The notes below the pieces were generated by a model, which worked only from the letters and a program-made list of their open reading frames with translations, ran no database searches and was not told the DNA's origin. Positions 41,825 through 45,637 of a DNA stretch of 64,000 nucleotides are shown here, piece by piece. The stretch lies in assembly GCF_001280565.1 (NCBI RefSeq), contig NZ_LGRO01000002.1, positions 310,001-374,000 on the forward strand, written 5' to 3'. This stretch comes from Sulfobacillus thermosulfidooxidans. GTDB taxonomy: Bacteria; Bacillota; Sulfobacillia; Sulfobacillales; Sulfobacillaceae. Positions within the stretch are counted from its first letter, which is position 1, and every line of letters starts with the position of its first letter. The position numbers and the translations under genes were made by a program.

Positions 41825-42029
41825 TCGGATTCCTCCCCCGTCCATCCTCTGGTTCATGGTATGCTTGGCTTTCATAGGCCATGATGAAAGAAATGTTCGG
41901 AACGAGCAGGAATCTTTGATAAAACCGCGTATAACTCAAATAAAGCGCATAATTACGAGCATGAAAATGCATGAAAAATTAGCCTATTTGTCAATGTCAA
42001 TTGCCAGATAGCACGAATTGAGTGGGAAA

Positions 42030-42872
42030 ATGAAAGAGGCACTGCAGTATATACCCCTAAGGCCCGACGAATTGTCTTCGTCATGGACAGTCATACACGT
42101 TTTAAAAATCACCACGACCCGGTCTTGCTGGATGCAGTGTCGGTTCTGTGATTTTAGCCATTTTGTCCCCTTGGTGGGAACTCATCCGGTCAAACCCTTA
42201 GCCTTGTTAAATCTTGTGCAAACAGACCCGCGATTAGATCGCCCCTATGATCTCATCAAAATTCGGGGAGGCTTAAGCTTTTTTGAGCCGTGGAGTTACT
42301 TCCGCACGGCCATTCGCCACATTCATACGCGTAATCCAGCACCCATCCAGGCTTTTTCCGCGGTAGAACTGATGCATTTTCACCGTGTAGAAAAAAAGCC
42401 GTTTCAAGAACTGCTGGAAGAACTACGATGGGCCGGGGCATCGAGCTTGGGCCCGGGGGGGAGTGAGTTACTCTTCGATGAGTGGCGCCAAGATGTGGCA
42501 CCACTCCGTCTTAGCGCAAAAGAGTGGCTTCGCATTCACCAACTCGCCGAAACCTGTGGTCTCCAATCCCGCGCGAGTATTATGGTATTTCCCGGCATAA
42601 CAGGTCGGCATATTCACGCTCATCTTGCGATTCTCAAAGAACTTCGGGGATTATCGGTCATAGAGATCAAACCATTTCGCCCAGCACCTCTTTACACCGT
42701 GGACTCTCCCCATGCCCTAGATCTTTTAGCCGTAATACAACTGATTCGCCAACAATTGCCGCATGTACTGCTTGAAATCAATATTGACCATGTTTCTCAT
42801 GACATGCGCGATCTACTGCGAGGGCACGGGGTATCGCGCGCATTAGTGACGCAGGAGGAAATGGACGCATGA
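42030..42872 (+). CDS. Shortened MqnE-like radical SAM protein
   Basis: A 280-residue radical SAM protein with the cluster motif CWMQCRFC (CxxxCxxC). The body follows aminofutalosine synthase (MqnE) closely: IKIRGGLSFFEPWSYFRTAIRHIHTRNPAPIQAFSAVELMHFHR, then ELRWAGASSLGPGGSELLFDEWRQDVAPLRLSAKEWLRIHQLA. It is ~90 residues shorter than MqnE, lacks the C-terminal DDLDGTVVEE-type region, and has GGLSFFEP where MqnE has GGLHPE/D. It is therefore probably a paralogue with another role. The start is uncertain: TTG 42018 and ATG 42030 are in frame, both with weak ribosome-binding sites. Its stop overlaps the next gene's ATG. Confidence 0.75.
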   Translation: MKEALQYIPLRPDELSSSWTVIHVLKITTTRSCWMQCRFCDFSHFVPLVGTHPVKPLALLNLVQTDPRLDRPYDLIKIRGGLSFFEPWSYFRTAIRHIHTRNPAPIQAFSAVELMHFHRVEKKPFQELLEELRWAGASSLGPGGSELLFDEWRQDVAPLRLSAKEWLRIHQLAETCGLQSRASIMVFPGITGRHIHAHLAILKELRGLSVIEIKPFRPAPLYTVDSPHALDLLAVIQLIRQQLPHVLLEINIDHVSHDMRDLLRGHGVSRALVTQEEMDA

Positions 42873-43540
42873 CGAACGATATTCTGTGGGTTCCTTGGTT
42901 ACAAGTTCCCCGCTTGCAATATCCAGCCTACGAAACCCGTATGGTTCAACTCTTTCTCAAAGGCCATCTGCAACGGGCGCATGTCCTTTGGAGTTCAAAA
43001 ACCTACGAACCGCTCCCGTCCTTTTCCCTTTTGCATCCCAAGACGGGAATGTTATGGCATGTTCGTTACGATCTGATGACGAATACCGAGCCCATTTTGG
43101 AGTTTAATGGACCTATAGAAATGGCGATAACCCTTGATCATATTCCCTTCGATCTTCTCAAAACGTTATCCGAAACCTCACGGCTAACCCGCATCATTCT
43201 CTATAGGCCCCAGCGACAGGATTTGCTCCATGTTATCCGAAGCATCGAACAAGTTTTGAGTGTGCTCTCTGGGATTCCATTATGGTTAGACCAAGTCACC
43301 GCAGGATGGGAAGCGCTAGCCTATTTACTGGCGGTGTTTCCAGAACTCCAGCCCTTTAATGTTCAAGACCAGGAGTTAGATCAGCTCTTAATCATCGCTC
43401 AAAAATTAAACCGCCGTGTGTTTTTGTCTGACTTCAGTGGTCGGGCACCGATTTTGGTTCCCTATCTCCCTGCCTTTCCCACCGATAACGAATCTCTTTG
43501 GAATATGGACAAGCTTCCCATATATCCCGGATATCTGTAA
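42869..43540 (+). CDS. Unknown protein coupled to the MqnE-like radical SAM gene
   Basis: A 223-residue protein without recognised domain, signal peptide or membrane helix, and with no cysteines. It has repeated Leu/Pro/Trp-rich segments (ILWVPWLQVPRLQYPAYETRMVQLFLKGHLQRAHVLW; PLWLDQVTAGWEALAYLLAVFPELQPF). The ATG overlaps the radical SAM stop (ATGA), and AGGAGG lies ten bases upstream, so the two are cotranslated. A partner or modifying-enzyme role in the same pathway is inferred only from this linkage. Confidence 0.65.
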   Translation: MTNDILWVPWLQVPRLQYPAYETRMVQLFLKGHLQRAHVLWSSKTYEPLPSFSLLHPKTGMLWHVRYDLMTNTEPILEFNGPIEMAITLDHIPFDLLKTLSETSRLTRIILYRPQRQDLLHVIRSIEQVLSVLSGIPLWLDQVTAGWEALAYLLAVFPELQPFNVQDQELDQLLIIAQKLNRRVFLSDFSGRAPILVPYLPAFPTDNESLWNMDKLPIYPGYL

Positions 43541-43572: not shown

Positions 43573-44607
43573 CTAAGTGTTCCATGGCTCTACACCTCGC
43601 GGAAAAGCGTTGGGTGGAGCTGTAACATGAAATGCTGAACCAAAACGATCCGCCCGCGCATTAAACCACAGACCTTGACTAGGACCATCTAAAATAATGA
43701 CCCAGGAAGAACTCAAGACGGATGTGACCGTCGTCTGTAAAGGTTGCGGCCATTTCACCAAACCTTTGTCAGAAAACGTTACGCCGGTGATGGGAATGAG
43801 TCCCTTAAGAGTAAGTCCATACACCGGATGAGAGGGGATCACTTCAATCACAGCGTCTTGGACGGAAGAAAAAACATGGAGGTGAGGGTATCCCAAATGG
43901 GTCAATGGTAAAATAACCACGCCAAATTTGCGCAATCCTTCCGTAATAGGCAAGTACATATCCGTAGAACCGACAGCTATCGATCCTTGGGGAACATGAG
44001 GCACAGTCCATTGCTGAATTATTCCTCGGGAATACCCCCATAAGATCACCTGGGCTTTATTCGGCCACACGCGAAGAATTACCATCTGATCCCGATGGGC
44101 GGGGTATAACGTAGTGATGGCCAAGGGTCCACGCAATTCGTGAACAAAATGTCCGTGACGCAGGCAATATAAATCAACATGCTGACCGTCTATTCTTTCC
44201 ACAATAGCCCACAAACGACCCGAAATGTAATCGACGGACAAGATTGTGCTATGGGATGGAGCCTTCCAAATGAGGTGGGCATGACCCCGCGGAGTCAACT
44301 GGTATAAAGACGATCCCGTCGTGACCCACAGGAAGCGACCGTGGCTGGCCATAATTTGTGATTGTGCCACCAAACCTAAGGATCCCAAATTGAGAAGATG
44401 ACCTTGAGGCTGTCCCTGGGCCGTGTACCGCCCCACCAAGAGTTTTTCAGTTCCGGCAGCTGAAGTGCGGGCAAAAGCGATAGCCATATCAGGGGGAGAA
44501 CTATTCGCGCCACAACCACTAATTCCGAGTCCCATAAAAATAACAAAAACAGCGACCCACTTTCTCCACCACAAGCACGGGCGAGAAAATGGGCGCTGGT
44601 TATGCAT
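43573..44607 (-). CDS. Exported lipoprotein, probable beta-propeller
   Basis: A 344-residue protein with a signal peptide (WVAVFVIFMGLGISGC) ending in a lipobox cysteine near residue 32. The mature part is beta-rich with repeated segments such as LLNLGSLGLVAQSQIMASHGRFLWVTTGSSLYQL and ITTLYPAHRDQMVILRVW, suggesting a propeller fold, though no standard repeat was identified. It is transcribed downstream of yqeY. Function unknown. Confidence 0.7.
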   Translation of the reverse strand: MHNQRPFSRPCLWWRKWVAVFVIFMGLGISGCGANSSPPDMAIAFARTSAAGTEKLLVGRYTAQGQPQGHLLNLGSLGLVAQSQIMASHGRFLWVTTGSSLYQLTPRGHAHLIWKAPSHSTILSVDYISGRLWAIVERIDGQHVDLYCLRHGHFVHELRGPLAITTLYPAHRDQMVILRVWPNKAQVILWGYSRGIIQQWTVPHVPQGSIAVGSTDMYLPITEGLRKFGVVILPLTHLGYPHLHVFSSVQDAVIEVIPSHPVYGLTLKGLIPITGVTFSDKGLVKWPQPLQTTVTSVLSSSWVIILDGPSQGLWFNARADRFGSAFHVTAPPNAFPRGVEPWNT

Positions 44608-45370: not shown

Positions 45371-45520
45371 TTACCATGGCCGATATAGATGCCCGTATTT
45401 GGATAAACATTCTTTGCACAAGGTGCTTTCCAAAAAACCGGTGGACATAGAGGTCGCCTCTCGTTTGACCACCGGTTTATGACAGATATCACAAAACTTT
45501 AGTTCTACGACTTTGCCCAT
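45371..45520 (-). CDS. Small zinc-ribbon protein
   Basis: A 49-residue protein with two CxxC knuckles (FCDICHKPV and LCKECLSKYG), consistent with one structural zinc. ATG 45520 follows AGGAGG, giving MGKVVELKFCDIC; the upstream open frame to 45586 is not needed. It sits between rsmE and rpsU. Role unknown, possibly nucleic-acid or ribosome associated. Confidence 0.8.
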   Translation of the reverse strand: MGKVVELKFCDICHKPVVKREATSMSTGFLESTLCKECLSKYGHLYRPW

Positions 45521-45637
45521 CGTCTCGACCTCCTGCCCATAGGATGGCCGAAACATTGCCGTTAAAACCCTAGAAATCGTCACCAAATTTGCGCACTAGC
45601 ACCCCAGTTTTCAAATCTCACAGTGTAAACTAACGCG

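Follow-up and report, generated by a model that had tools for sequence, protein, structure and literature searches.

The window analysed here, a 64,000-nt stretch of the Sulfobacillus thermosulfidooxidans genome, contains a pair of genes, a radical SAM gene (gene 1) and a partner gene (gene 2), that overlap in an ATGA start/stop as described in the initial annotation. For gene 1, the ATG at position 42030 is the likelier start (280 aa), and the TTG at 42018 is a possible one. A sequence resembling a ribosome-binding site, GGAGG, lies just 5′ of gene 2 inside the end of gene 1. Of 27 genomes, 24 retain the 4-base overlap, mostly together with a GGAGG-like site within the end of gene 1. Both genes are under purifying selection, with dN/dS ratios (taken from the computed dN and dS) of 0.08–0.17 for gene 1 and 0.14–0.20 for gene 2. 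Thus, the existence of 30 orthologous pairs, the conserved overlap and the purifying selection show that the pair is no product of chance but a genuine unit, which is coupled in translation and subject to selection. A promoter and terminator scan revealed nothing informative, and a literature search found no description of the two-gene unit.

Features of the two-gene unit in the window (positions count from the first nucleotide of the window).
Feature	Coordinates	Strand	Basis and description
Radical SAM gene (gene 1)	42018..42872	+	ORF; MqnC/MqnE/CofH-related, own clade
CxxxCxxC cluster motif CWMQCRFC in gene 1	42126..42149	+	Sequence, alignment
RGGLSFFEPW segment in gene 1, in place of MqnE/MqnC GGLHP	42264..42293	+	Alignment with MqnE/MqnC
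Partner gene (gene 2), 223 aa, without known family	42869..43540	+	ORF, null searches, AF2 model
ATGA start/stop overlap of genes 1 and 2	42869..42872	+	Sequence

Conservation analysis of 34 Sulfobacillaceae genomes identified orthologues of gene 1 in 30 and those of gene 2 in the same 30, i.e., the two genes are present or absent jointly across all 34, and the partner always accompanies the enzyme. Two of the four genomes that lack the pair are only 61–63 percent complete, and the other two make up one genus (g216); in one genome of this genus, G306, a LysR-type gene occupies the place between yqfC and yqeY. Within the phylum (299 genomes), gene 2 is confined to Sulfobacillaceae, and the relatives of gene 1 elsewhere in the phylum and class are longer proteins of the MqnC/MqnE type that score about 70–130 bits. 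A scan of one genome per species (84,980 species), with a single sequence as query, returned only eight loci of the Sulfobacillus group, and the pair was seen in no genome examined outside Sulfobacillaceae. All copies lie at one syntenic site within a conserved neighbourhood that runs from yqfF, phoH, yqfD and yqfC to yqeY and prmA, so that the shared occurrence reflects vertical inheritance rather than a series of independent events. Since synteny extends over the entire block, adjacency to the sporulation genes yqfC and yqfD was rejected as a functional clue.

Further open reading frames were observed in this neighbourhood. Convergent to the unit, the window encodes a putative lipoprotein without known family (43573–44607, − strand), which is conserved in most Sulfobacillaceae and, like the pair, absent from the G306 locus. 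Between rsmE and yqeY (45371–45586, − strand), a short protein is encoded that contains two CxxC pairs (CDIC..CKEC) and is closely matched by a protein of G306 (L138), a distant genome. In genome G314 (L115), an additional ORF of ∼129 aa separates the two genes of the pair.

Among the NCBIfam profiles, the gene 1 protein matches best to MqnC (TIGR03699; 97.1 bits at a cut-off of 428.1, residues 27–209), followed by MqnE (TIGR03700; 91.3 bits, cut-off 434.55) and CofH (TIGR03551; 65.7 bits, cut-off 374.1), and the matches span ∼180 residues; the Pfam Radical_SAM match (E 2.8e-4) stays under the gathering score. Its AF2 model (pLDDT 81.6, pTM 0.83) is most similar to MqnE (6xig; Z 21.3 over 259 residues), and PylB, BioB, HydG, HydE and ThiH follow at Z ∼16. 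With a CxxxCxxC motif in a beta-alpha barrel, the protein belongs to the radical SAM superfamily. The initial annotation had described it as retaining this motif and most of the MqnE body but lacking the C-terminal region. The motif is indeed present and the C-terminal loss was confirmed, everything past MqnE residue 330 being missing, but the N-terminal region is missing too, and the barrel is complete in the model. All 30 relatives are equally short, with 264–283 aa in the matched part.

In the alignment of the 30 orthologues, the cluster cysteines are invariant throughout, as are F40, G82, L83, S111, E114, G144, G145, R161 and D259 (residue 1 being the Lys encoded at 42027). The segment RGGLSFFEP aligns with the GGLHP of MqnE and MqnC. 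The replacement of GGLHP(E/D) by SFFEP noted in the initial annotation therefore holds for the window but not for the family, in which SFFEP is limited to close relatives: the family form is RGGLSxxEP, of which only G-L, plus P nearly always, is kept family-wide. On the strand before this segment, 27 of the 30 members carry a Lys at the position occupied by His in MqnE and by Met in MqnC. From this Lys and from RGGLSxxEP in place of GGLHP, we infer that the substrate pocket is likely to differ from that of MqnE and MqnC.

Phylogenetic trees place the gene 1 family in one clade (support 99–100) outside MqnE, MqnC and CofH and nested in none of them; the MqnC clade has a support of 99 and includes no member of the gene 1 family. 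Long-branch attraction affected a tree that included CofG and outgroups, and the tree was rebuilt without them. For the gene 1 clade, the AU test rejects neither a grouping with MqnC (p 0.51) nor one with CofH (p 0.52), and a grouping with MqnE has a support of 92, short of the mark. Since the tree is compatible with more than one sister group of the clade, the proposed derivation from menaquinone synthesis is one possible origin of the family.

The genomic context speaks against the pathways in which the related enzymes act. No MqnA/MqnD (PF02621) was detected in any of the 34 Sulfobacillaceae genomes and no MqnE over the cut-off in 8 genomes of the window's genus, and a futalosine pathway was accordingly rejected for gene 1. 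CofE, the F420 ligase, is over the cut-off in 0 of the 34 genomes, which likewise eliminates the F420 pathway. MenB, on the other hand, is over the cut-off in 31 of the 34, and in the window's own genome a manual reading of the proteins placed it in an operon of menF, menD, menH, menB, menE and menA (L144:6707–13987). By these men genes, Sulfobacillaceae make menaquinone via the classical route. Menaquinone synthesis has been reported for all Sulfobacillus genomes examined (PMC4378227). The classical men genes, the absence of MqnA/MqnD and the lack of any CofE over the cut-off thus exclude the gene 1 enzyme from both futalosine and F420 synthesis. In other families of the class (G336, G371, G387, G425–G427, G432), between one and four long proteins of the MqnC/MqnE type are present, and the futalosine route therefore probably does occur within the class, alongside the classical one used by Sulfobacillaceae.

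In agreement with the initial annotation, the partner has no recognisable domain: searches of Pfam, NCBIfam and the PDB with gene 2 gave no match beyond chance, and no family was reached with a profile built from 28 relatives or with these relatives taken singly. In the AF2 model (pLDDT 79.9, pTM 0.74), strands and helices alternate as in TIM barrels and the tail is disordered, and the product is thus predicted to adopt a TIM-barrel-like fold. VIA-align ranks MqnE first for this model (Z 12.1) and HMG-CoA lyase next (10.4). We do not claim the partner as a duplicated, cluster-less MqnE, as the hhalign probability is 3 percent against the gene 1 family and 1 percent against MqnE/MqnC. Against E. 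coli ThiG alone, hhalign gave 0.2 percent, and none of these profile comparisons reached significance; ThiG is missing among the best 50 VIA-align rows, which is no evidence of a difference. The conserved residues of the partner, H38, S51, R108, R113, D141, G146, R182 and D188, point to a ligand site. Four of them, R113, D141, R182 and D188, lie near predicted strand ends in the model, which suggests that the partner has its own active or ligand-binding site.

Directly 3′ of the pair, 17 of the 30 genomes, from several genera, carry a third gene of ∼200–230 aa (L012:9521–10117, L118 and 15 other loci; one cluster of relatives), which is missing in the window's own genus. Its product matches Pfam Rhodanese over the gathering score and looks like two rhodanese domains in tandem. 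An alignment of the 17 proteins shows no catalytic Cys in either active loop, and judging from these sequences the protein probably binds rather than transfers sulfur.

Our tentative explanation, and the one we favour, is a two-component radical SAM enzyme that would hand its product to a barrel partner, by analogy with ThiH and ThiG. Following the motif, the gene 1 protein would be catalytic: it would bind a [4Fe-4S] cluster via the three Cys of CxxxCxxC and cleave SAM to a 5′-deoxyadenosyl radical, which would act on a small molecule inside the complete but bare (beta-alpha)8 barrel. The partner, made by coupled translation, would most likely receive the reactive product, in a role like that of ThiG towards ThiH. 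In several other genera, the Cys-less tandem rhodanese protein would join the pair, probably as a binding or scaffold protein. We infer the complex of the two proteins, the hand-over and the scaffold role of the rhodanese-like protein from this combination of features. Several points count against this explanation: the 30 pair-bearing genomes are non-independent, hhalign gave no sequence relation between the partner and E. coli ThiG, and the window's own genus is without the rhodanese-like gene.

The main rival to a hand-over is a purely structural partner, which would replace the trimmed N- and C-terminal parts of the enzyme so that the pair forms one enzyme with one active site. The shortness of the enzyme at both ends in all 30 relatives, the strict pairing and the conserved overlap would fit such a subunit, but the conserved polar residues of the partner (R113, D141, R182 and D188), with the site that they suggest, make it a somewhat less likely alternative. 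Less probable still, the two genes could be functionally unrelated and held together only by local synteny, as the conservation of the entire neighbourhood from yqfF to prmA might indicate; against this, the overlap is kept despite a deep divergence of the pair (20–30 percent identity), and both genes are jointly absent in g216, with the LysR-type gene of G306 in their place.

We consider it improbable that the partner is a degenerate enolase-superfamily enzyme that perhaps stands in for MenC. Foldseek ranks enolase-superfamily barrels first for the gene 2 model (best E 0.008, probability 0.94), with muconate cycloisomerase and relatives including o-succinylbenzoate synthase at the top. D141, with G-W after it, is reminiscent of the D-x-N..GW strand, with which hhalign aligns it in MenC-type proteins of E. 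coli. Moreover, the men operon of the window's own genome is without menC. A motif search over ∼0.8 Mb of this genome found no enolase-type gene, although one may well lie elsewhere in it. However, the hhalign probability is 1 percent and not significant, and of the enolase features D141 and D188 are kept, whereas D167 and the Lys are not and there is no KxK; at 223 aa the protein is also short, and genus g216 has MenB without the pair. A genuine MqnE or MqnC of the menaquinone pathway, the closest described families by profile and fold, can practically be dismissed, with scores below a quarter of the cut-offs, a separate clade and classical men genes, and is largely refuted by the absence of MqnA/MqnD.

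The pair is a new subfamily of a known kind of enzyme together with a new partner family, so far found only in Sulfobacillaceae. MqnC, MqnE and CofH build aromatic cofactors by unusual carbon–carbon bond chemistry. Beside these three, the gene 1 family might represent a fourth functional branch in the acidophilic Sulfobacillaceae, in which the enzyme and its private barrel partner, joined in several genera by a Cys-less rhodanese scaffold, would make a cofactor or metabolite not described before, a proposal that we make with more reserve than that of the hand-over. As Sulfobacillaceae are without the known pathways that use such enzymes, the unit probably makes an as yet unidentified product, and the conservation of a distinct subfamily where both pathways are missing points to a reaction not described so far. 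The new radical SAM pathway suggested by the initial annotation is plausible, and its origin in menaquinone synthesis is a possibility.

Compared with known systems, the gene 1 protein shares with MqnE (TIGR03700; PDB 6xig/6xi9) the barrel fold, the CxxxCxxC motif and motifs of the FSxxE and PGGxE type, but differs in its score (91 of 434 bits), in lacking both terminal regions, in the RGGLSxxEP segment and the Lys in place of His, and in a genome without futalosine genes. MqnC is the best profile (97 bits), but its cut-off is 428, it forms a separate clade with a support of 99, and its pathway genes are missing. CofH belongs to the same radical SAM branch (66 bits) but has a cut-off of 374, lies in a separate clade and is not accompanied by any CofE over the cut-off in the 34 genomes. 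In contrast to ThiH-ThiG, the partner showed no sequence link to ThiG in the hhalign comparison with the E. coli protein, the unit is without a ThiS-like gene, and the rhodanese-like third protein of relatives is without a catalytic Cys. Dehydroglycine, the ThiH product, is proposed to reach ThiG by leaving ThiH at the bottom of the barrel, which a C-terminal stretch of ThiH can cover or uncover (PMC9046217); the covering stretch is missing in the gene 1 protein. Nevertheless, the unit resembles ThiH-ThiG in combining a radical SAM barrel enzyme with a TIM-barrel protein, here a predicted one, and product hand-over is a known principle, for whose study in radical SAM enzymes a bare barrel with a private partner would provide a compact system.
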